DNA from: Labedaea rhizosphaerae
Lineage (GTDB): Bacteria; Actinomycetota; Actinomycetes; Mycobacteriales; Pseudonocardiaceae
NCBI RefSeq assembly: GCF_004362825.1
Contig: NZ_SNXZ01000011.1
Location: 62,001-126,000 of the forward strand
DNA length: 64,000 nucleotides
Reading direction: 5' to 3'
How positions within the stretch are numbered: position 1 is the first letter of the stretch; every line of letters begins with the position of its first letter. Below are positions 1,755-16,863 of the stretch, one piece after another. The position numbers and the translations under genes are program-made. Under the pieces are notes generated by a model. It was not told the DNA's origin, searched no databases, and saw only the letters and a program-made list of their open reading frames with translations.

Positions 1755-3623
1755 GTGAAAGTCTTGATGATCTCCATGCCTTGGCAAGGGCTGGACACGC
1801 CGTCGAGCGCGCTGGGAATCCTCGGACAATGCGTCCGGGAAAAGGCGAATGAGTGGGTCGTCGACGAGTTGTACGCCAACATCCGCTGGGCCGAATACCT
1901 GATGCGGGCGAGCAATGGCACCATCACGGCCACCCATTACGGCAGCGTCGCCGACCAGGTGTTCCACGGCGTGGGCGACTGGGTGTTCACGCCCGCGCTC
2001 TACGACGTCGACGGCTACCTCGCCGCGGAGTTCGCCGAGTTCCTCGAACAACGCGACGTCGACCCGCTCGTCCCGGTCGCGATGCAGGGTCACGCCCGCG
2101 GGTTCGTCCGCGAGCTCGCCGCCGAGATCGTCGCCGGAAAGCCGGACGTGGTCGGGTTCACCAGCACGTTCATGCAGAACGTGCCCTCGCTCGCGCTGGC
2201 CAAGGAGCTGAAGGCTCTGGCGCCGGACGTCGTGACCGTGATGGGCGGCTCGAACTGCGACGGGCCGCAGGGTGCCGCGCTGCACCGGAACTTCACCCAG
2301 CTCGACTTCGTGATCAGCGGCGAAGGCGAGCGCGCGCTGCCGGCCCTGCTGAACCGGCTGGCCGACGGGACCGGCTTCGCCGACGTGCCCGGGCTCAGCT
2401 GGCGCGACGGCGGGCAGCCGGTGGCGAACCCGCCCGCGACCTCGGCGCTGCCGCTGGCCATGGTCCCCGCACCCAACTACGACAGCTACTTCCACGCGCT
2501 CGAACGCTCGGTCGTGCGCGAGCACGTCCGGCCGATGGCGGTGCTGGAGACCTCGCGCGGCTGCTGGTGGGGCGAGCAGCACCAGTGCACCTTCTGCGGC
2601 CTGAACGGGTCGAACATCAACTTCCGGAGCAAGGCGCCGGACCGCATCGCCAAGGAGGTCCGTGAGCTCGCCGAGCGGTACCGGGTGCTCGACCTGGTCG
2701 TGGTGGACAACATCCTCGACATGAAGTACCTCGGCACGGCCATGCCGCAGCTGGCCGCGCTGGACTGCGACCTGCGCATCCACTACGAGATCAAGTCCAA
2801 CATGACGCGCGACCAATTGGCGGCCTTGAAGGAGGCGAATGTCCTCTACGTCCAGCCCGGCATCGAAAGCCTGAGCAGCCACGTCCTGCGGCTGATGGAC
2901 AAAGGCGTCAGCGCGGCCCACAACGTGCGCATGTTGCGGGACGGCGAGGACCTCGGCCTGAACGTCACCTGGAATATTCTCTACGGCTTTCCGGGCGAAA
3001 CCGAGGACGATTACCGCGGGTTGCTCGGGAAATTCGCGGCCCTGGAACACCTGCAGCCCCCGACCGGCGCGTGGCGAATAGCGTTGGAGCGGTTCAGCCC
3101 GTATTTCGAGGACACCAGCCAGGGCTTCCTCTTCCGCCGTCCGGCGGCGATCTATGACTTCATCTACCAGGTCCCACGCGATCAGCTCTACGACCTGGTC
3201 TACCTGTTCGACAGCGGCCACCAGGGCATCTCCGGCCCCATCGAGGACGAGATCAAGCAGGCCGTGGACGAGTGGGCGAAGTCCTACGCGCACAGCAGCC
3301 TCACCTACTGGACCGACGACCGGGGCCGTGTCGTCCTCGAGGACCGCCGGGCCAGCTGGCCCGAGGAAACGATCGAGCTGGACGACGTGCACAGCAACGT
3401 CTACCTCGGCATGTTCCAGTGCGCCGGTCGCGAGGGCATCCGCCGCCGGCTGACCGAGAGCGGGCACGTGATCAGCGACGACGAGGTCGACGCGATGTTG
3501 CGGTACTTCGTCGACCGCGGCCTGGCCTTCGAGGACGAGGGCCGGTACGTGAGCGTCGCGCTGGAGGTCGATCCGTACCGCCGCAAGCTGGTGGACGGCC
3601 GGGAGGTCGTGGCAGCCCGATGA
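1755..3623 (+). CDS. Cobalamin-type radical SAM C-methyltransferase
   Basis: 622-aa radical SAM enzyme with an N-terminal B12-binding-like region (about residues 90-210) followed by the radical SAM barrel. The cluster ligands are in a CX7CX2C arrangement, C270, C278 and C281, in the motif CWWGEQHQCTFCGLNG. That motif marks the family usually named RiPP maturation radical SAM C-methyltransferase; B12-dependent members methylate unactivated or aromatic-adjacent carbons. Here the neighbours (DUF5825 protein, JAMM protein, sulfur carrier, P450, TrpRS) match the chuangxinmycin pathway as I recall it, where such an enzyme with a small partner installs the C-methyl group, so a small indole substrate is more likely than a peptide. 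The GTG start follows GGGGG at about 9 nt. The stop overlaps the next start by ATGA, showing translational coupling. Confidence 0.88.
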   Translation: MKVLMISMPWQGLDTPSSALGILGQCVREKANEWVVDELYANIRWAEYLMRASNGTITATHYGSVADQVFHGVGDWVFTPALYDVDGYLAAEFAEFLEQRDVDPLVPVAMQGHARGFVRELAAEIVAGKPDVVGFTSTFMQNVPSLALAKELKALAPDVVTVMGGSNCDGPQGAALHRNFTQLDFVISGEGERALPALLNRLADGTGFADVPGLSWRDGGQPVANPPATSALPLAMVPAPNYDSYFHALERSVVREHVRPMAVLETSRGCWWGEQHQCTFCGLNGSNINFRSKAPDRIAKEVRELAERYRVLDLVVVDNILDMKYLGTAMPQLAALDCDLRIHYEIKSNMTRDQLAALKEANVLYVQPGIESLSSHVLRLMDKGVSAAHNVRMLRDGEDLGLNVTWNILYGFPGETEDDYRGLLGKFAALEHLQPPTGAWRIALERFSPYFEDTSQGFLFRRPAAIYDFIYQVPRDQLYDLVYLFDSGHQGISGPIEDEIKQAVDEWAKSYAHSSLTYWTDDRGRVVLEDRRASWPEETIELDDVHSNVYLGMFQCAGREGIRRRLTESGHVISDDEVDAMLRYFVDRGLAFEDEGRYVSVALEVDPYRRKLVDGREVVAAR

Positions 3624-4291
3624 GCGCACCCACGAACATCACCGACACCACCACCAACAGCATCGACATCGCCGAACTCCGGGCGCGGGCCTCGGCCGGC
3701 GAACGCGCCGCGGGGCGTCCCGCGACCTTGGCCTTGGGGGCCGACCTGCCCACGGCCAGTGAACTGCGGACCATGCTGGCCTGCGTGCCCGTCGCCGGGG
3801 TGCGGCTGGCGCCACCCGTCGACTTCGACCGCCTGCCCGGTGACGTGCTCGTGCAGATCGTCGCCTTGCTACGCGAGTGCTCGTCGATCGGCGTGCGGGT
3901 GACGTGGTCGCTGGTCTCCGGCCCGGACAAGGCCCTCGACCACCTGCCCGCGCCCGAAGGACGGCCGCGGTGGCGCTCGGCGAACACCTTCGGCCTGTTC
4001 TACTTCCGCCGCGGGCCCGGCTTCCTGTCCGTTGTGGACCGCAGGCCCGAGTCGATCGGCCGGACCACCGTGGCCGAACCGGCCCTGCTGGACGCCTTCC
4101 ACCCGACCCTGGACGGCTGTGCCTGGGACGGTTCCGCGGCGGTCCGCCGGCTGGTGGAGCTGGGTCTGGTGATGCGCTTCGGCGACCACTGCGTGGCCCT
4201 GCCGGTGCACATGCGGACCTGGCCGATCGGGGCGGCGCTGCTGGGCGGGACCCTGGCGTCGGCAGGCAAGAACCCGGACAAGAAAGTATGA
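3620..4291 (+). CDS. DUF5825-like partner of the radical SAM enzyme
   Basis: 223-aa soluble protein that I place in the DUF5825 group, recurrently found next to this radical SAM family in actinomycetes. It overlaps the upstream stop and the downstream start by ATGA, so it is made in step with both. A central region ending in RSANTFGLFYFRRGPGF and a C-terminal winged-helix-like stretch (VRRLVELGLVMRFGDHC) are visible; there are no metal or nucleotide motifs. From memory of the chuangxinmycin work, a companion protein in this position is needed for C-methylation, so a structural or cofactor-delivery partner role is the best guess. The family name is from pattern memory. Confidence 0.65.
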   Translation: MSAPTNITDTTTNSIDIAELRARASAGERAAGRPATLALGADLPTASELRTMLACVPVAGVRLAPPVDFDRLPGDVLVQIVALLRECSSIGVRVTWSLVSGPDKALDHLPAPEGRPRWRSANTFGLFYFRRGPGFLSVVDRRPESIGRTTVAEPALLDAFHPTLDGCAWDGSAAVRRLVELGLVMRFGDHCVALPVHMRTWPIGAALLGGTLASAGKNPDKKV

Positions 4292-4878
4292 CCGCGACCG
4301 TCCGCCTCGGGCCGGAACCGACGCGCCGCTTCGCCGCCGTGGCCACCCAGGAGTACCAGAAGTGCCTGGACAGCCGGGATTCCGCGGGCGTGCCCAGCCA
4401 CCTGCCCCGTGCTTCGGCGTTGCTGTTCGGGCGCTCGAACGACGCCGGGATCGTCATCGAGGACCTCGAGTTCGTGCCGAACGTCCGGGACAGCGACGAG
4501 ACGGTGATCGCCGAGTTCGAGACGACCATCGCGGCGCGGTTCGGCGAGGTCTACCGCAACCCCGGGCGCGGCTTCTGGTGCGACGAAAGCCAAGTGCTGC
4601 AAGCGATCAAGCGGCATGCCGAGAACGGCCTCGACCTGCTGGGGTCGGTGCACTCGCACCCCAACTGGCACGAGATCGGGCCACCGCACGAGCGCTACCA
4701 GCAGCTCAGCGAACACCCGACGCGGATGGACGACTACCTGTTCCGCCAGTCGGGCTGGCCGGTGAACGTCATCTGGTACATCCGCGGCGACGAGCACCGG
4801 GTGGCCTGCTGGCGGCCCGGCCCATTGAACTGCGATCGGCTGCACATCGAAGTCCCGCTTCCCGGCCTAGGGGGTTGA
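4288..4878 (+). CDS. JAMM/MPN-domain protein, probable sulfurtransferase
   Basis: 196-aa protein with a JAMM zinc motif, H122-S-H124-P in GSVHSHPNWH, followed by S141 and D148/D149, and the lead-in NPGRGFWCDESQ typical of prokaryotic JAB domains. JAMM proteins normally hydrolyse peptide or isopeptide bonds after a ubiquitin-like Gly-Gly. The canonical early motif PxExxGxLxG appears here as PRASALLFG (residues 40-48) with no glutamate, which suggests non-hydrolytic chemistry. It lies directly upstream of a ThiS/MoaD-like carrier gene. In chuangxinmycin biosynthesis a deubiquitinase-like JAMM protein moves sulfur from the carrier thiocarboxylate; this is the likely role. ATGA overlap with the upstream gene; 2 nt to the next. 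Confidence 0.82.
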   Translation: MTATVRLGPEPTRRFAAVATQEYQKCLDSRDSAGVPSHLPRASALLFGRSNDAGIVIEDLEFVPNVRDSDETVIAEFETTIAARFGEVYRNPGRGFWCDESQVLQAIKRHAENGLDLLGSVHSHPNWHEIGPPHERYQQLSEHPTRMDDYLFRQSGWPVNVIWYIRGDEHRVACWRPGPLNCDRLHIEVPLPGLGG

Positions 4879-4880
4879 CC

Positions 4881-6371
4881 ATGACCGATGGCGTGACCGT
4901 CAAACTTCCGGCGGCCTTCCACGCGCTGAGCGGCGGACGGCGCCAGGTGCCGGTCGCGGGCGACACCGTCGGCGCCGTGCTGTCCGGTTTGGACGATGCG
5001 GTGCCCGGCGTGCTCGCTCGCATCACCGAGCCCGGCGGAGCGCTGAAGCGCTACGTCAACGTCTACCGCAACGACGAGGACATCCGCGGTCTCGACGGCC
5101 TCGACACGAAGGTGACCAGCGACGACGTCGTCTGGATCATCCCGGCGGTGGCCGGCGGCAGCGACGTCCTGCCCACCGAGTTCTTCACCGACCCGGGACC
5201 GTCCCCGCACGCGGCGATCGCGGAGCTGCGGGCGCGGTGCCCGGTGCACCGGATCGACGTCCCGCCGGGGGCCGAGGCGTACGCGGTCCTCAGCCACAAG
5301 GTCGTCGAGGAAGCGCTGGGCGACGCGCGGCTGACCAAGCAGGTCGAGAACCTGCCCGCCCAGTACCGGGACAAGGCCGCCTCCAACAGCCTGCTCGTTG
5401 TGGGCAACCTGGGCTTCGCCGACCCGCCCAAGCACACCCGGTTGAAGAAGCCGCTGAACAAGGCGTTCACGCCGAGCGTCGTCGCGAAGCTGCGGCCCCG
5501 CATCCAGGACATCGTCGACGACCTCATCGACGGTTTCCCCGAGCACGGCGAGATCGACCTGCTCGCCGACTTCTCCCTGCCCATGCCGCTCACGGTGATC
5601 TGCGAATACCTGGGCATCCCGGTCGAGGACCGGCCGCTGTTCCTGCACTGGAGCTATGTGCTGAGCCAGGATCCGTTGCAGCACGCGGAAAGCGCGCTGA
5701 AGACGGCGAGCAAGGAGTTCTCCGAGTACTTCCTGGCGCTGGCCGACGAGCGGCGCAAGGACCTGCGTGACGACCTGCTGAGCGAGCTCATCCGGGCCCG
5801 CGACGACGACACGATGACCGACGCGGAGCTGCTGTCCACGCTGCTCCTGCTGATCATCGCCGGGCACAAGACTGTCGCCAACATGCTGGCCAACGGCACG
5901 CTGCTGCTGTTGCGCCACCCCGACCAGCTCGCGATGCTGCGCGCCGATCCCGGCCTGATCCCCTCGGCGATCGAGGAGATCCTGCGCTGCGAGGGTTCGG
6001 CCGCGTGGGCGTCGCTGCGGGTGGCCGGGCAGGACATGGAACTCGGCGGCGTGCCGATCGCCAAGGGCAGTTTCGTGCACCTCTACCTGACCGCGGCCGG
6101 CCACGACCCCGACGTCTACGACGACCCCGACCGATTCGACATCACCCGATCACCCAACCGGCACCTGTCCTTCGGGCACGGCCCGCACTTCTGCATCGGT
6201 GCGCCGCTGGGCCGGTTGCAAGGCGAGATCGCGTTCGCGGCGTTGCTGCGCCGGCTGCCCGACTTCGAGCTGGCCGTGCCCGAGGACGAGGTCGTCTGGC
6301 TCGCCGACAGCTCGCTCAGCCGGGGCCTGGCGGCGCTGCCGCTGCGGGTGGGCAGGCGGTTGCCGCGATGA
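4881..6371 (+). CDS. Sulfur carrier (ThiS/MoaD-like)-cytochrome P450 fusion
   Basis: One 496-aa frame. Residues 1-93 form a complete ubiquitin-fold sulfur carrier ending VVWIIPAVAGG, with the diglycine at 92-93; residue 94 onwards is a full P450. P450 landmarks are EEILRCE (ExxR) and FGHGPHFCIGAP with haem ligand C438. The I-helix reads AGHKTVA, with K330 where an Asp/Glu is usual and T331 at the oxygen-binding Thr. A free carrier needs an exposed C-terminal Gly-Gly to carry sulfur as a thiocarboxylate, so either the fusion is cleaved after G93, or the linker region acts differently. The JAMM gene immediately upstream is the obvious processing or sulfur-transfer partner. The P450 is the candidate for C-S bond closure of a thiopyrano-indole. 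GGGGG precedes the ATG by 5 nt. Domains are certain; processing is inferred. Confidence 0.88.
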   Translation: MTDGVTVKLPAAFHALSGGRRQVPVAGDTVGAVLSGLDDAVPGVLARITEPGGALKRYVNVYRNDEDIRGLDGLDTKVTSDDVVWIIPAVAGGSDVLPTEFFTDPGPSPHAAIAELRARCPVHRIDVPPGAEAYAVLSHKVVEEALGDARLTKQVENLPAQYRDKAASNSLLVVGNLGFADPPKHTRLKKPLNKAFTPSVVAKLRPRIQDIVDDLIDGFPEHGEIDLLADFSLPMPLTVICEYLGIPVEDRPLFLHWSYVLSQDPLQHAESALKTASKEFSEYFLALADERRKDLRDDLLSELIRARDDDTMTDAELLSTLLLLIIAGHKTVANMLANGTLLLLRHPDQLAMLRADPGLIPSAIEEILRCEGSAAWASLRVAGQDMELGGVPIAKGSFVHLYLTAAGHDPDVYDDPDRFDITRSPNRHLSFGHGPHFCIGAPLGRLQGEIAFAALLRRLPDFELAVPEDEVVWLADSSLSRGLAALPLRVGRRLPR

Positions 6372-7258
6372 CGATCGCCGTGGTGGGAGCCGGTGCGGTG
6401 GGCGGCTACTTCGGTGGCGTGCTCGCCGCGGCCGGGAACGACGTGCGGTTCCTGACGCGTGGCTCGTGGCCGGGCGGTGTGCGCGTCAACGACCGGCCGG
6501 TCCAGGTCCAGGCGACGGACGACCCGCGTGCGCTCGGTGAAGTCGAGGTCGTGCTGCTGTGCGTCAAGACGCCGCAGTTGCCTGCCGCCGTCGACGCGCT
6601 GGGCCCGGTGATCGGCACGCGGACCGTCGTGATCACCGTGCAGAACGGGGTGGAGGCACCGGAGGAGGTCGCGCAGCGCATCGGGCGCGACCACGTGCTG
6701 CCCGGCCTGGCCCGGATCGTCGCCACCACGACCGGCCCGGGCGAGATCCGGCAGGTCGGTCCGCCCGGCGCACTGGGCTTCGCCGAATGGGACGGCTCGG
6801 TGTCCAAGCGGGTCCTTCGGCTGCGTGAGGTGTTGTCGGCGGTGCCGATGCTCGAGCCACCGGACATCTGGGCCGCGCTGTGGGCGAAGTTCCTGTTGGT
6901 CGTGCCGGTGGGCAGCCTCGGCGCCGCGACCGGCGGGGCGACCATCGGCGAACTCCGGTCGCGCGAAGGCATCCGGAAGCTGCTGATCGCCGGCATGCGG
7001 GAGATCTACGCGACCGGCCTCGAGCTGGGCATCGCGTTGCCCGTCGACGCCGTCGAGAACGCGGTCGCGCTCATGGACCGGCAGGGCGCGGACGTCACCT
7101 CCTCGCTGCAGCGCGACCTCCTGGCCGGTCGCCCGTCCGAGCTCGAAGCCTGGACGGGGGCCGCGGTTCGGTTGGCCCACAAGGCAGGCATGTCCGCGCC
7201 GGTGCACGAGTTGCTCTACGAACTGCTCGCCACCCGTGCGTCGCTCGCCATCGCGTGA
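6368..7258 (+). CDS. Ketopantoate reductase-like oxidoreductase
   Basis: 296-aa ApbA/PanE-type NADP-dependent reductase. The N-terminal Rossmann motif is GAGAVGGYFG, and VQNGVEAPEEVAQRIG contains the conserved NGV substrate-loop signature; the C-terminal helical domain is complete. Family members reduce 2-keto acids. The start overlaps the stop of the carrier-P450 gene (ATGA), so it belongs to the biosynthetic operon, where it probably reduces an indole-pyruvate-type 2-keto acid rather than ketopantoate. A second, unlinked ketopantoate-reductase gene lies at 20653-21588, leaving this copy free to specialise. Substrate is inferred from context only. Confidence 0.8.
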   Translation: MTIAVVGAGAVGGYFGGVLAAAGNDVRFLTRGSWPGGVRVNDRPVQVQATDDPRALGEVEVVLLCVKTPQLPAAVDALGPVIGTRTVVITVQNGVEAPEEVAQRIGRDHVLPGLARIVATTTGPGEIRQVGPPGALGFAEWDGSVSKRVLRLREVLSAVPMLEPPDIWAALWAKFLLVVPVGSLGAATGGATIGELRSREGIRKLLIAGMREIYATGLELGIALPVDAVENAVALMDRQGADVTSSLQRDLLAGRPSELEAWTGAAVRLAHKAGMSAPVHELLYELLATRASLAIA

Positions 7259-7376: not shown

Positions 7377-7436
7377 CGTCGCCTGGACCAGGGGCTCGTG
7401 CATCGGAGCGGCACGACCCACTCACCAGGAGACCCC

Positions 7437-8501
7437 ATGAACACCACCCCCGTTGACGAGCTCGGAACGTCCGCCGCGCAGGTGCGCAGCGCGGAGCTGG
7501 AGCAGCAGATCCTCAAGGAGCCCGGGAAGTTCCGGATCCTGACCGGGGACCGACCTACCGGCCGGCTGCACCTCGGGCACTACTTCGGCTCGCTGCACAA
7601 CCGCGTGCGGCTGCAGGACCTCGGCGTGGAGACGCTCGTGGTCATCGCCGACTACCAGGTGCTCACCGACCGGGACGTGGCCGACAACCTGACCGGCTAC
7701 GTCGAGGAACTGGTCCTGGACTACCTGGCCATCGGCGTGGATCCCGCGCGCAGCACCATCTTCACGCACAGCGCGGTGCCCGCGTTGAACCAGTTGATGC
7801 TGCCGTTCCTGAGCCTGGTCTCGGTCGCGGAGCTCAACCGCAACCCGACGGTGAAGGACGAGATCACGCACTCACGCCAGTCGGCCGTGAGCGGCCTGAT
7901 GTTCACCTATCCCGTGCACCAGGCCGCGGACATCCTGTTCTGCAAGGCAAACCTGGTCCCGGTCGGTCAGGACCAGTTGCCCCACCTGGAAGTCACGCGC
8001 ACCATCGCGCGGCGCTTCAACGACCGGTACGGCTCTGTCTTCCCCCAGCCGGAGGCGTTGCTGTCGAACGCGCCGCTGCTGCTCGGCACCGACGGCACGA
8101 AGATGAGCAAGAGCCGGCGCAACGCCATCCCCCTGGCCGCCGACGCCGACGAGACCGCGCGGCTGCTGAAGGGGGCCAAGACGGACTCCGAGCGGCACAT
8201 CGCCTACGACCCGGCGACGCGCCCGGAGGTGTCGTCGCTGCTCCTGCTGGCCGCGCTGTGCCAGCAGCGGACACCGCAGGAGGTGGCCGAGGGCATCGGT
8301 TCCGCCGGCGCGGCCGCGCTGAAGAAGGTCGTGACGGAGTCGGTCAACGAGTTCCTGGCCCCGATCCGGGCCCGGCGGGCGGAGTACGCGCAGGACCTCG
8401 GCTTCCTCCGCGAGACGCTGCGGGAGGGCAACGAGCGAGCCCGGGCCGTCGCCGACGTGACGCTCGCCGAGGTGCGCACCGCCATGCACAGCGACTACTG
8501 A
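7437..8501 (+). CDS. trpS: Tryptophanyl-tRNA synthetase, probable antibiotic-resistant copy
   Basis: 354-aa class I synthetase that charges tRNA-Trp. The HIGH-type motif is HLGH (residues 45-48) and the signature KMSKS is exact (222-226). The ATG is chosen because AGGAGA lies just upstream; an earlier in-frame GTG at 7398 has no such site. The gene sits behind a Trp attenuator and directly after a chuangxinmycin-like operon. Auxiliary TrpRS enzymes resistant to indolmycin or chuangxinmycin are known in Streptomyces and in producers, and one Streptomyces copy is controlled by ribosome-mediated attenuation. The likely job is self-protection, with inhibition of the housekeeping enzyme switching this copy on. 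Resistance is inferred. Confidence 0.93.
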   Translation: MNTTPVDELGTSAAQVRSAELEQQILKEPGKFRILTGDRPTGRLHLGHYFGSLHNRVRLQDLGVETLVVIADYQVLTDRDVADNLTGYVEELVLDYLAIGVDPARSTIFTHSAVPALNQLMLPFLSLVSVAELNRNPTVKDEITHSRQSAVSGLMFTYPVHQAADILFCKANLVPVGQDQLPHLEVTRTIARRFNDRYGSVFPQPEALLSNAPLLLGTDGTKMSKSRRNAIPLAADADETARLLKGAKTDSERHIAYDPATRPEVSSLLLLAALCQQRTPQEVAEGIGSAGAAALKKVVTESVNEFLAPIRARRAEYAQDLGFLRETLREGNERARAVADVTLAEVRTAMHSDY

Positions 8502-8614: not shown

Positions 8615-11131
8615 GTGCACGGGCTCGAGGACCTGGCGCGGGAACTCGACCTGCTGCGTGCGCGGGCCGCGCACGGCACCGGCAAGGCGCGGGTGAGCCT
8701 CGCCCAGCTCGCCGATCGCGTCCAGTTGGCGCGCTCGACGGTGCACGCCTACGTCAGCGGCGTGTCGTTGCCGCCGTCCGAGGTGCTGGACGCGATCGTG
8801 ATCGCGCTCGGGGCGAGCACGGCCGAGCAGGCCGCGTGGGCCGAGGCCTGGTACCGGGTGCACGGCGAGCGGGAAGCGGTCAAGCGCACCGAGAAGGAGC
8901 ACGCCGGGCCCCGCCAGCTACCCCGCGACGTCGCGGAGTTCACCGGCCGGGTCGAGCAGTTGCGGTGGCTGGACGAGTGCCTCGACCAGGGCGCCGTCGT
9001 CACCGCCATCGCGGGCACCGCCGGTGCGGGCAAGACCGCCCTTGCCGTGCACTGGGCGCATTCGGTGGCCGACCGGTTCCCCGACGGCCAGCTGTTCGTG
9101 AACCTGCGCGGCTACGACCCGGGCGCACCCGTCGACACCGCGGACGCGCTGGCGATGGTGTTGCGTGCGCTCGGCGTCACGGGACCGCGGATCCCGGGCA
9201 CCGTGCCGGAGCGTGCGGCCATGTACCGCACCGCGCTGGCCGGGCGCCGGGTGCTCGTGGTGCTCGACAACGCCGGCAGCGCGGAGCAGGTGCGTGACCT
9301 GTTGCCCGGCACGGCCGGGTGCATGGCGTTGATCACCAGCCGGGACGCGCTGGGCGGGCTCGTGGTCCGCGACGGCGCGCGCCGCATCGACCTCGACGTG
9401 CTGACCGAGCCGGAGGCGGTCGCGTTGCTGGCCCGGTTGCTGGGCGACGACGAACCCGACCACGAGGCCGAGGCGGCGCAGGCGCTCGCGCGAGCCTGCG
9501 CCCGGTTGCCGTTGGCGTTGCGGATCGCCGCCGAGCTCGTGCGGTCGCGCTCGCGTGGCGGCATGGGCGATGTCGCCGCCGAACTCGCCGACCAGGACCG
9601 GCGGCTCGACCTGCTGGACGCGGGCGGTGACCCGCACACCGCGGTGCGCGCGGTGCTGTCGTGGTCGGTGCACGGGCTGACGCCCGACGCGACGAGGATG
9701 CTGGCGCTGCTGGGCGTGCACCCCGGCCGGCGCGTGGACCAGTACAGCGCGGCGGCGCTCGCGGGGTGCGAACCCGCGGCGGCACGCCGGCTGCTGGACG
9801 AGCTGCGCCGCGCGCACTTGGTGCAGGCGCAGGCGGACGGCCGCGTCGAGCAGCACGACCTGCTGCGCGCGCACGTCGTCGAGCGGGCCACGGGGCTGCC
9901 CGACGCGCACGCCGCCCGCACCCGGCTGCACGACTACTACCGTTCGGCCGCGCGTGCCGTGATGAATGTGTTGCACCCCAACGACAGCAGCCGGCGTGGT
10001 ACCCGGCTGCGGGTGCCGCCCACCGCGGTGGCGCTGCCGGAGCTGCCCGATGCCGAAGCGGCGATGAGCTGGCTCGCCGCGGAGCTGGACAACATCGTGG
10101 CGATGACCGCGGACGCGGCTCGGCACGGGTTCGCCGAGCACGCGCACCACGTCACCTACCTGCTGTGGAAGCAGCTCGACCTCGCCGCCTACCGGGACGA
10201 GGCGATGGCGATGTACCAGAACACACTCGCGGCGGCCCGGTCCGTTGGCTACCCGGCCGGTGAGGCGTCGGCGCTGCGCAACATCGCGACCGTGCTCGAC
10301 GCGCTCGGCCGCCACGAGGAGGCGCTGGTCCACCTGCGGCAGTCGTCGGCCATCCAGCGCGAACTCGGCGACGCCGAGGCCGCCGCGATGACCCTGACCA
10401 GCATCGGGGTGGTGCTGCAGGAGCTCGGCCGGTTCGAGGAATCCATTGCCGCGCAAGAGGAATCGCTGGCCATCCGGCTGGCCGCCGACGACCGGCAGGG
10501 CGCGGCCGCGTCGATGCTCAACCTGGGTGTCGTCCTTGAGGAGCGCGGCGAGTTCGCCCGCAGCAAGCAGTACCACTCGCAGGCGATGGCGGTGTTCGAG
10601 GAGGTCGGCGACCGGCTCGGCCAGGCGCACGCGCTGGCCAACCTGGGGAACATCTCGCGGCTGCTGGGCGATCCGTCGGCGGGCATCACTTACCTGCTCC
10701 GGGCCAAGGTGCTCTACGAGGAACTGGGCAGTCCCGTCGGCGTCACCTACGTCCACGCGGGGTGGGCGATGTGCGAAGCGGCCCTCGGGCACTCGGCGGA
10801 GGCGCTCACCCACCACCACGCCGCGCTGGACCTGGCCCGCGAGCTCGGCAACGCCGCGCTCGAGACGGAGGTCCTCAACGACCTGGGGATCACGCTGGCG
10901 GCCGGCGGTGACGAGCAACGCGCGGACGGCGCGCACCAGGCCGCGCTCGACATGGCCACCCAGCGCCAGGACCCGCACGAGCAGGCGCGTGCGCTGCACC
11001 ACCTGGGCAAGCTCCGCGGGGACACGGAATACCTGCGCCGCGCCGCCGAACTGTTCGACGGGCTGAACGCGCAGAAGGCGGCGCAGGTCCGTGCCGATCT
11101 CGCGGCGATGACCCACCGCGCGGTCGGCTAA
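8615..11131 (+). CDS. HTH-STAND ATPase-TPR transcriptional regulator
   Basis: 838-aa regulator. Residues about 1-85 form a helix-turn-helix (LAQLADRVQLARSTVHAY). An NB-ARC-like NTPase follows, with Walker A GTAGAGKTAL near residue 135 and Walker B RRVLVVLDNAG near 215. The C-terminal half, from about residue 530, is a run of TPR repeats (EASALRNIATVLDALGRHEE and similar). Such proteins are ligand-triggered switches, common beside actinomycete secondary-metabolite genes. It is co-directional with trpS and could be the cluster regulator, but may equally mark the cluster edge. The GTG start is the only reasonable one in frame. The ligand is unknown. Confidence 0.85.
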   Translation: MHGLEDLARELDLLRARAAHGTGKARVSLAQLADRVQLARSTVHAYVSGVSLPPSEVLDAIVIALGASTAEQAAWAEAWYRVHGEREAVKRTEKEHAGPRQLPRDVAEFTGRVEQLRWLDECLDQGAVVTAIAGTAGAGKTALAVHWAHSVADRFPDGQLFVNLRGYDPGAPVDTADALAMVLRALGVTGPRIPGTVPERAAMYRTALAGRRVLVVLDNAGSAEQVRDLLPGTAGCMALITSRDALGGLVVRDGARRIDLDVLTEPEAVALLARLLGDDEPDHEAEAAQALARACARLPLALRIAAELVRSRSRGGMGDVAAELADQDRRLDLLDAGGDPHTAVRAVLSWSVHGLTPDATRMLALLGVHPGRRVDQYSAAALAGCEPAAARRLLDELRRAHLVQAQADGRVEQHDLLRAHVVERATGLPDAHAARTRLHDYYRSAARAVMNVLHPNDSSRRGTRLRVPPTAVALPELPDAEAAMSWLAAELDNIVAMTADAARHGFAEHAHHVTYLLWKQLDLAAYRDEAMAMYQNTLAAARSVGYPAGEASALRNIATVLDALGRHEEALVHLRQSSAIQRELGDAEAAAMTLTSIGVVLQELGRFEESIAAQEESLAIRLAADDRQGAAASMLNLGVVLEERGEFARSKQYHSQAMAVFEEVGDRLGQAHALANLGNISRLLGDPSAGITYLLRAKVLYEELGSPVGVTYVHAGWAMCEAALGHSAEALTHHHAALDLARELGNAALETEVLNDLGITLAAGGDEQRADGAHQAALDMATQRQDPHEQARALHHLGKLRGDTEYLRRAAELFDGLNAQKAAQVRADLAAMTHRAVG

Positions 11132-15591: not shown

Positions 15592-16863
15592 GTGCGCAAG
15601 CAGATCGCGACGTTGACCGTGCTCGCCGCGTTGTTGGCGATCACGTTGTTCGGCGGCCCGCTCGCGCTCGCGGTGTCGCGCTACTACGTCACCGAGGAGC
15701 GTGCGGAGCTCGAGCGCGCCGCCGACGACGCCGCGCTCGTGCTGGCCGCCGACCTCCTGGGTGGCCGCATCCCGCAGACCATGCCGAAGGTCAGCGAGCC
15801 CGGTTCGTACGCGGTCTACGACCCGGCCGGGCGCCGACTGGCCGGTGCTGGACCCGCCGCCGTGCCCGCGGCCACGCGGGTGCACCCGGGTGAGGTGCTG
15901 GGCGACGACACCTCGGACGACTATGGCGTGCTGGTCCCGATCAGCGACGACGGCCGGGTCGTCGCCGTGTTGCGGGCCGCCACGCCACGCGTCGAAGTCG
16001 TGCTCCAGACCGCGTTGACGTGGGCGGCCATGGTCGCGTTGGCCGCCATGGCGATCGTCGCGACCTGGTTGGTCGCGCGGCGGCGGGCCGGGCGCCTCGC
16101 CGAACCGCTGGAGGCCCTGTCGCAGACCGCGCGCCGGCTCGGCGACGGCGATTTCACCGTGCGGGCCCGGCGGTCCGGCATCGCGGAGATCGACTCCGTC
16201 GGCGCGTCGCTGGACGCCACGGCCGAACGGCTGAACGGACTGCTGGCGCGGGAACGGGCGTTCACCGCCGACGCCTCGCACCAGCTGCGCACGCCGCTGA
16301 CCGGTCTGCGGCTGCAACTGGAAGCGGCGTTGGACAACCCGGCCGCGGACCCGAGGCAGGCCCTCGTCGCGGGCATCGCCACCGCGGACCGGCTGGAACG
16401 CACCATCGCCGACCTGCTGGCCCTGGCCCGGGACGCGCCGCTGGCCGCCCGGCACGCCGCGCTCGGGGACGTGCTCGACGACATCCGCGGTGAGTGGTCC
16501 GGCCAACTCGACCGGGCCGGGCGCGCGCTCGAGGTGACGGTGGAGCCCGGCCTCGCCGAGTGCCTGGTCGCGGGGCCGGTCGTGCGGCAGATCCTGGCCG
16601 TGCTGCTCGACAACGCGGCACGCCACGGCGCGGGCACGGTGCGGGTCACCGCCCGCGACGCGGGCGACACCCTGGCGGTGGACGTGTCGGACGAGGGCCC
16701 GGGCATCGAGGCCGACGAGGACGTCTTCGCGCGGCGGGCCGCGGCGCACGGCATCGGCCTGGCGCTGGCCCGTCGGCTCGCCGAGGCGGAGGCCGGCCGG
16801 CTGCGGCTGACGCGGCACGCGCCGCCGCGATTCACCCTGCTGCTGCCGCTGGAGGCGCAGTGA
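15592..16863 (+). CDS. Two-component sensor histidine kinase
   Basis: 423-aa membrane kinase. A first membrane segment lies at about 7-28, an extracytoplasmic sensor domain runs to about 140, and a second membrane segment (MVALAAMAIVATWLVA) is followed by HAMP. The phospho-acceptor is H230 in DASHQLRTPL. The ATPase domain has the N-box DNAARHG and G-box DEGPGIE. AAGGATG precedes the GTG start. There is no receiver gene immediately downstream; the nearest response regulator is 0.8 kb away on the opposite strand (17653-18342) and is the likely partner. Confidence 0.9.
   Translation: MRKQIATLTVLAALLAITLFGGPLALAVSRYYVTEERAELERAADDAALVLAADLLGGRIPQTMPKVSEPGSYAVYDPAGRRLAGAGPAAVPAATRVHPGEVLGDDTSDDYGVLVPISDDGRVVAVLRAATPRVEVVLQTALTWAAMVALAAMAIVATWLVARRRAGRLAEPLEALSQTARRLGDGDFTVRARRSGIAEIDSVGASLDATAERLNGLLARERAFTADASHQLRTPLTGLRLQLEAALDNPAADPRQALVAGIATADRLERTIADLLALARDAPLAARHAALGDVLDDIRGEWSGQLDRAGRALEVTVEPGLAECLVAGPVVRQILAVLLDNAARHGAGTVRVTARDAGDTLAVDVSDEGPGIEADEDVFARRAAAHGIGLALARRLAEAEAGRLRLTRHAPPRFTLLLPLEAQ

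Follow-up and report, generated by a model that had tools for sequence, protein, structure and literature searches.

Organization of the locus

The window (the whole stretch of 64,000 nucleotides that was analysed) contains, at 4881–6371 on the forward strand, one open frame that runs from an ATG at 4881 to a TGA at 6371 and encodes 496 amino acids. The sequence-only reading of this DNA had claimed that a whole carrier with a Gly-Gly end (residues 1–93) continues in frame, without a stop or a new start, into a full cytochrome P450, and Pfam profiles, matches in the PDB, and a scan for start codons all agree with it. Pfam ThiS covers residues 7–93 of the fusion (E 3.3e-9, over the cut-off) and the p450 profile covers the rest. 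In PDB sequence searches, the carrier part (residues 5–93) is closest to 3dwg_C (E 8.5e-19), which bears the PDB label “9.5 kDa culture filtrate antigen” and which we take to be M. tuberculosis CysO. Residues 94–496 align end to end with residues 8–410 of the CxnD chain 6kfw_A (717 bits, E 9e-215, 78.7% identity), while the runner-up match scores 304 bits (E 1.6e-89). The chain of 6kfw_A has histidines, presumably a tag, directly ahead of its TDVIPTEFF. By sequence comparison, the P450 part, whose heme Cys438 codon lies at 6192–6194, is an ortholog of CxnD, the C–S-bond-forming P450 in the biosynthesis of the antibiotic chuangxinmycin. The fused gene and its neighbors are arranged as follows.

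1755..3623, + strand: B12-binding radical SAM C-methyltransferase, CxnA-like by family (TIGR03975, 568 bits)
3620..4291, + strand: DUF5825 protein (PF19142, 76 bits), directly after the methylase gene in all four relatives as well
4288..4878, + strand: CxnF-like JAMM protein, 196 aa (Pfam Prok-JAB, 23.3 bits)
4881..5159, + strand: carrier domain of the fusion, residues 1–93, ThiS/CysO/SAMP1-like, ending ...VAGG (Pfam ThiS and 3dwg_C matches)
5154..5162, + strand: Gly92-Gly93 and Ser94, the proposed cleavage site GG/S (codons GGC GGC AGC)
5160..6371, + strand: P450 domain, residues 94–496 and stop, a CxnD ortholog without a start codon of its own (6kfw_A match)
6368..7258, + strand: ApbA/PanE-type reductase, CxnC-like by family and position (PF02558 and PF08546)
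7398..8501, + strand: extra tryptophanyl-tRNA synthetase (TrpRS), exact start unsure (TIGR00233)

In the chuangxinmycin pathway as described, tryptophan is transaminated by CxnB, and the sulfurtransferase CxnF, which is deubiquitinase-like, adds sulfur to the α-keto acid together with CxnE, a ubiquitin-like carrier (PMC12087186). CxnC then reduces the thione and CxnD closes the ring, on the thiol, two steps after sulfur addition, while CxnA with CxnA1 accounts for the methylation step (PMC12087186). The carrier CxnE, the sulfurtransferase CxnF, and the P450 CxnD are named there as separate proteins (PMC12087186), and CxnD is likewise described as a separate enzyme elsewhere (PMC11843346). TrpRS is described as the target of chuangxinmycin, and the published cluster is reported to have been found via trpRS as a presumed resistance gene (PMC12087186).

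The neighbors in the window fit most of this cluster, which the sequence-only reading had not identified; the P450 was compared by sequence and the other genes by family and position. Carrier, JAMM protein, reductase, and B12 radical SAM methylase occur together by family, and the same set is found in all four relatives described below. Like the chuangxinmycin (cxn/cxm) cluster of Actinoplanes tsinanensis, the window has a CxnD-type P450 and, by family, a carrier, a JAMM protein, a reductase, a B12 radical SAM methylase, and a TrpRS. Unlike that cluster, in which CxnD and CxnE are separate, the window joins the two in one chain, and neither an aminotransferase (CxnB) nor a LysR-type CxnR was found among the 15 neighboring proteins scanned with Pfam (10 in the window and 5 upstream). 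The carrier used in published chuangxinmycin work was reportedly named Cxm4GG. The extra TrpRS is a probable self-resistance gene, and the DUF5825 protein is perhaps a CxnA1-type partner of the methylase, a guess from its position only.

Two further genes adjoin the cluster. A large HTH/NB-ARC/TPR regulator lies beside TrpRS at 8615–11131 of the window; the regulator described for the published cluster is of LysR type (PMC12087186). On the reverse strand, at 157–1374, a P450 flanks the cluster whose nearest type is the cyclodipeptide-associated TIGR04538 (376 bits, below the cut-off of 500); in the relatives’ fetched stretches it matches only the CxnD genes, at 31–36%.

Related loci in other genomes

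When 200 relatives were searched with the carrier, G022 and G125 were the first found, at 68–69%. A JAMM query of 390 genomes of the window’s family gave a match in 41, with the cxn type (>60% identity) confined to the window and G022. Overlapping draws of 396 genomes from the phylum, 394 from the class, and 397 from the order yielded 2, 5, and 7 matching genomes, respectively, and the cxn-type loci among them were those of the window, G927, G1292, and G125 only. Extending the search to the families or genus to which G927 and G1292 belong (35, 51, and 134 genomes) yielded no further cxn-type locus, a plasmid collection returned only matches below 60% identity, and a pattern scan of genome contigs gave 58 pattern matches with one relative among them, the G125 contig again. 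There are thus five cxn-type loci: the window, L010/L031 (G125), L011/L043 (G022), L067 (G927), and L069 (G1292).

Carrier, P450, JAMM, reductase, methylase, and DUF5825 genes are clustered in all four relatives, and a cluster carrier is retained in five of five cxn-type loci. The window’s order, methylase-DUF5825-JAMM-carrier-P450-reductase, recurs in L031, L043, and L069; in L067 the methylase and DUF5825 genes lie behind the reductase. Identity with the four relatives is 57–69% for the fused carrier, 62–65% for the reductase, and 70–80% per aligned segment for the methyltransferase. TrpRS is 62–81% identical in three relatives, while in the fourth just its last 39 residues fall inside the fetched stretch; its orientation is that of the window in L069 only. 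The L067 locus also has an aminotransferase gene. In G927, the methylase gene is split by an IS66-type transposase gene (DDE_Tnp_IS66; L067:14229–18001, with the match broken at 15674/17576), and because of this insertion the strain would be expected to make a non-methylated compound.

The junction between carrier and P450

Three of the four relatives (L010, L011, and L069) encode carrier and P450 in two genes with an overlap of 1–4 bases, and their carriers continue past Gly-Gly for 9, 10, and 10 residues, respectively. From Gly-Gly to the codon after the P450 Met there are exactly 32 nt in each of these three loci and 0 nt in the window, so that the tail, the ribosome site of the P450, and its ATG are all absent at the window junction, which we term scarless. 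The first residue past Gly-Gly is Ser in six of six capped carriers (window, L010, L011, L067, L069, and L077, the last a non-cxn locus described below), and the tail is otherwise not conserved. A cut after G93 would leave SDVLP..., and the separate P450s begin MSDVLP, MTDVLP, or MTEVLP. Initiator Met is removed before Ser or Thr. Because the junction is scarless, such a cut would therefore yield the expected mature N-terminus of the P450.

GC3 is 0.96–0.98 over residues 51–150, and the continuity of codon-position GC over the junction makes a hidden frameshift unlikely; the 32-nt difference from three relatives also means that a single-base error could not hide two separate genes. A frameshift near the junction, a possibility that the sequence-only reading had singled out for checking, is thus unlikely. 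The only in-frame start codons at residues 86–145 are GTGs at V90 and V122. A ribosome site is lacking ahead of the GTG at V90, which scores −3.1 kcal/mol with the anti-SD, whereas the P450 starts of L010 and L069 give −6.8 and −10.5, respectively (the L011 row, start 1798, was left out of this comparison). The GTG at V122 reaches −4.8 kcal/mol, and a start there would drop 28 mostly conserved residues.

The same two-domain architecture, for which a search of other genomes had been suggested, occurs once more, in L067. There the distance from Gly-Gly to the P450 codon is 33 nt and not 32, and the frame therefore runs through, giving a fusion of 519 aa from the ATG at 10309 that both ThiS and p450 match and that depends on this one-base length difference. 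It also has an in-frame GTG at residue 116 with a ribosome site of −6.6 kcal/mol, similar to that of the L010 P450 start, followed by PEVLPSEFF. Since this internal GTG is usable and lies just before the P450, L067 may make both a fusion and free P450. The clean, scarless fusion is found in one genome only. The fused proteins of the window and L067 do not form a sister pair in the P450 tree, where L067 clusters with L031 and L043 (99/98) and is placed, along with CxnD, apart from the window (98/99). Two independent fusion events would be the simpler reading of this tree, whose root is unsure because the outgroups from the window’s own genome were poor (L003 fell into an open fork with the window).

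Selection on the fused carrier was compared with that on its relatives. Carrier dN/dS is 0.26–0.56 in the four pairs that include the window, compared to 0.19–0.44 among the three separate carriers, for sequences that are short and partly saturated. Paired with L069, its nearest relative, the window has a carrier value of 0.56 and a P450 value of 0.32. These figures are not decisive and lean slightly against cleavage, as they make weaker constraint on the fused carrier possible.

The adjoining JAMM protein

The sequence-only reading had also placed a JAMM protein next to the fusion, and the JAMM-like frame at 4288–4878 bears this out. The ligand set of Glu, H-x-H, and Asp is present as E76, H122, H124, and D148, which are invariant in 22 of 22 aligned relatives (the alignment omits L048, L049, L051, L052, L055, L060, L064, L065, L066, and all unfetched matches). 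The HSH is encoded at 4651–4659, the Asp of Thr145-x-x-Asp148 at 4729–4731, and Glu76, the probable catalytic Glu, at 4513–4515. The canonical JAMM motif is given as EXnHS/THX7SXXD (PMC300881). The window protein departs from the canonical spacing, with a T-x-x-D after HSH and the Asp 24 residues past the second His. Its Prok-JAB score of 23.3 bits (E 6.2e-5) is just below the curated cut-off of 25, as are those of L010 (19.3 bits), L011 (20.2 bits), and L077 (24.2 bits), and the L069 ortholog is not matched by Prok-JAB at E 1e-3. When the PDB was searched with the JAMM sequence, all matches were weak and unrelated (best E 0.45). AlphaFold2 models are unusable both for judging an MPN fold in the JAMM protein (mean pLDDT 37.3, from an alignment of 2 sequences) and for the fusion (mean pLDDT 49.3, from 4 alignment rows, with the carrier at about 60–83 per block and the P450 and linker mostly lower).

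Among the aligned proteins, all six JAMMs with an adjoining carrier gene have H-S-H, and all 16 that lack such a neighbor have H-[L/M]-H, the absence of a carrier being judged by tblastn inside the fetched stretches. This pattern is compatible with a role of the Ser in acting on a carrier, though shared ancestry could also account for it. Members of the wider JAMM family (34–49% identity) sit in a different setting, many of them beside genes that appear by eye from their sequence to be VOC-like or LysR-like, and no carrier was detected near them by tblastn (E 1e-4 and 0.05) except in L077. In that locus, of non-cxn type and on a 7.7-kb contig, an H-S-H JAMM is followed directly by a 93-aa ThiS-type carrier ending GGS (L077:5252–6161). 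JAMM relatives of about 44% also occur in two stretches with a Trp halogenase, an Asn synthase, and an FAD enzyme (L044:5858–12468, called by Pfam, and L068:3619–12727, called by sequence likeness only). These stretches, which presumably resemble a thienodolin-type cluster, have no carrier gene within the portions fetched.

Other sulfur-carrier genes in the genome

Searched with the carrier at E 1e-3, the genome gives one match besides the fusion, a gene on contig C4 whose product is 43% identical to the fused carrier and has a free VAGG end. It sits in a run of genes that we take to be CysO-like, Mec-like, and CysM-like, the first assigned by Pfam ThiS and the Mec-like one by Pfam Prok-JAB. 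A MoeZ-like ThiF-rhodanese protein, also encoded in the genome, makes thiocarboxylation of a carrier possible, and Prok-JAB proteins are present as well; the Mec-like JAMM is thus a second candidate protease. The locus resembles the CysO-CysM-Mec pathway in its carrier and JAMM protein and in its closest solved carrier, 3dwg_C. It differs in that the genome’s CysO-like carrier ends in a free Gly-Gly. The JAMM protein of the CysO-CysM-Mec pathway removes the product cysteine.

Proposed processing of the fusion

A thiocarboxylate needs a free C-terminal Gly, and a carrier whose C-terminus is held in a peptide bond cannot be thiocarboxylated. For this reason, carriers with residues after Gly-Gly need trimming, and since the separate cxn carriers are capped in three of three loci, uncapping is required in any case. 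Several such systems are described. MoaX of M. tuberculosis is reported to be cleaved between Gly82 and Ser83, with cleavage required for activity and the protease not identified in that study (PMC4326299), and JAMM proteins are reported to cut the D. radiodurans MoaD-MoaE fusion (PMC8832034) and a SAMP1-MoaE fusion (PMC4443979). Carriers with residues after Gly-Gly are said typically to need a protease such as QbsD, and deletion of the JAMM gene ptmS1 is reported to have abolished thioacid products (PMC6006322).

Like MoaX and the D. radiodurans MoaD-MoaE, the window protein has an N-terminal carrier that is fused after Gly-Gly (PMC4326299, PMC8832034). However, their partner, MoaE, takes sulfur from the carrier, while the partner in the window is a P450 that acts two steps later, and the window fusion lies in a biosynthetic operon with a JAMM gene directly upstream. 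With its ThiS fold and residues after Gly-Gly, the fusion also falls within the definition of a capped carrier, as in thioquinolobactin with QbsD and PtmS2 with PtmS1, where residues past Gly-Gly are likewise accompanied by a JAMM-family protease (PMC6006322). Its cap differs in being a whole enzyme of 403 residues, compared to the two and one residues described for PtmS2 and PtmS3 (PMC6006322). Among the openly available papers listed, none described a sulfur carrier-P450 fusion, judged by titles and the starts of abstracts. The principle of a carrier fused after Gly-Gly and released by a protease is known; what appears to be new is a P450 as partner, joined without a scar and in a biosynthetic setting. 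The view that no such mechanism had been described does not hold in general, as Gly-Gly cleavage of carrier-enzyme fusions has been published (PMC4326299, PMC8832034, PMC4443979).

Starting from what is directly observed (the fusion, the P450 orthology, the junction geometry, the relatives’ capped carriers, and the JAMM, MoeZ-like, and Mec-like genes) and taking the pathway steps from the literature, we infer the cleavage and its protease. The fusion would be a capped-carrier precursor with a CxnD-type P450 as its cap, most likely cut by the adjacent CxnF-like JAMM protein before entering the known pathway, a reading to which we give a probability of roughly two in three. The cut would fall between Gly93 and Ser94 and, if not made by the adjacent JAMM protein, would be the work of the housekeeping Mec-type JAMM; the genome’s MoeZ-like E1/rhodanese would thiocarboxylate the freed carrier. 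From that carrier, sulfur would pass via the CxnF-like protein to the tryptophan-derived keto acid; the product would then be reduced, and the freed P450 would close the ring. The GG/S site is the same as the mapped cut in MoaX, although the shared Ser may reflect mere common descent. Several points count against this reading: the JAMM protein’s score under the Pfam cut-off, its wide T-x-x-D spacing, the L069 ortholog without a Prok-JAB match, and a CysO-like carrier with a free Gly-Gly that could stand in for the fused one. In addition, the published pathway describes the JAMM protein as a sulfurtransferase (PMC12087186), and carrier trimming by the same protein is a proposal made here.

It is improbable that the fusion stays uncleaved, with a carrier domain that is only a passive remnant and with the housekeeping CysO-like carrier as the source of sulfur in trans. 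The genome does contain that carrier, with its free VAGG beside CysM-like and Mec-like genes, the carrier dN/dS relative to L069 is above that of the P450, and thioplatensimycin is described as using carriers from outside its cluster (PMC6006322). Yet the fused carrier keeps its fold, its Gly-Gly, and the next Ser, it is closer to the four relatives’ carriers than to the CysO-like protein, and no cxn-type locus has lost its cluster carrier. Loss of 32 nt from an ordinary two-gene arrangement during assembly would explain why three relatives carry exactly that many more nucleotides here, and none of the 200 relatives belongs to the same genus, so that there is no near check. Such an artefact is nonetheless very doubtful, as GC3 is continuous, the assembly comprises 22 contigs at 99.1% completeness, and an in-frame gap of this size is not a usual type of assembly error.

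An arrangement in which one gene gives two products, the full-length fusion and free P450 from an internal start, is suggested by the GTG of L067 with its ribosome site. It is a better fit to L067 than to the window, where V90 lacks such a site and V122 would remove conserved residues, and for the window it is highly improbable. The physical linkage, and the membership of both domains in one pathway, are all that speak for a working tether, in which the attached carrier would hand sulfur in cis to a substrate in the P450. This is scarcely credible given the need for a free C-terminal glycine. Moreover, sulfur entry is described as preceding the P450 step and as going through CxnF, with CxnD separate and acting two steps later (PMC12087186, PMC11843346). 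Of the two options originally posed, cleavage after G93 is accordingly the better supported, while cis transfer conflicts with the order of the pathway as well as with the free-glycine need.

If the capped-precursor reading is true, processing of a fused precursor by a deubiquitinase-like protease would extend from molybdopterin synthase to an oxidase of secondary metabolism. With the fusion, one could also ask directly whether the JAMM protein of chuangxinmycin biosynthesis, which is described as a sulfurtransferase, has protease activity as well. As a natural scarless fusion, the protein is ready-made for engineering carrier-P450 pairs for C–S bond formation. A more elaborate and unlikely version may be put forward tentatively. 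In it, one JAMM protein would both free the carrier from the P450 and deliver its sulfur, and the cut would set active carrier and active P450 at 1:1, a self-metering precursor whose cap is the ring-closing enzyme. The fusion may also, while still uncut, keep its P450 docked to the JAMM protein, with substrate handed on within a transient complex.

A different pair of neighbors is joined in G1292, where DUF5825 and JAMM form one open frame of 456 aa (L069:9099–10469; DUF5825 by Pfam and JAMM by tblastn). Adjoining genes of this operon seem prone to fusing.
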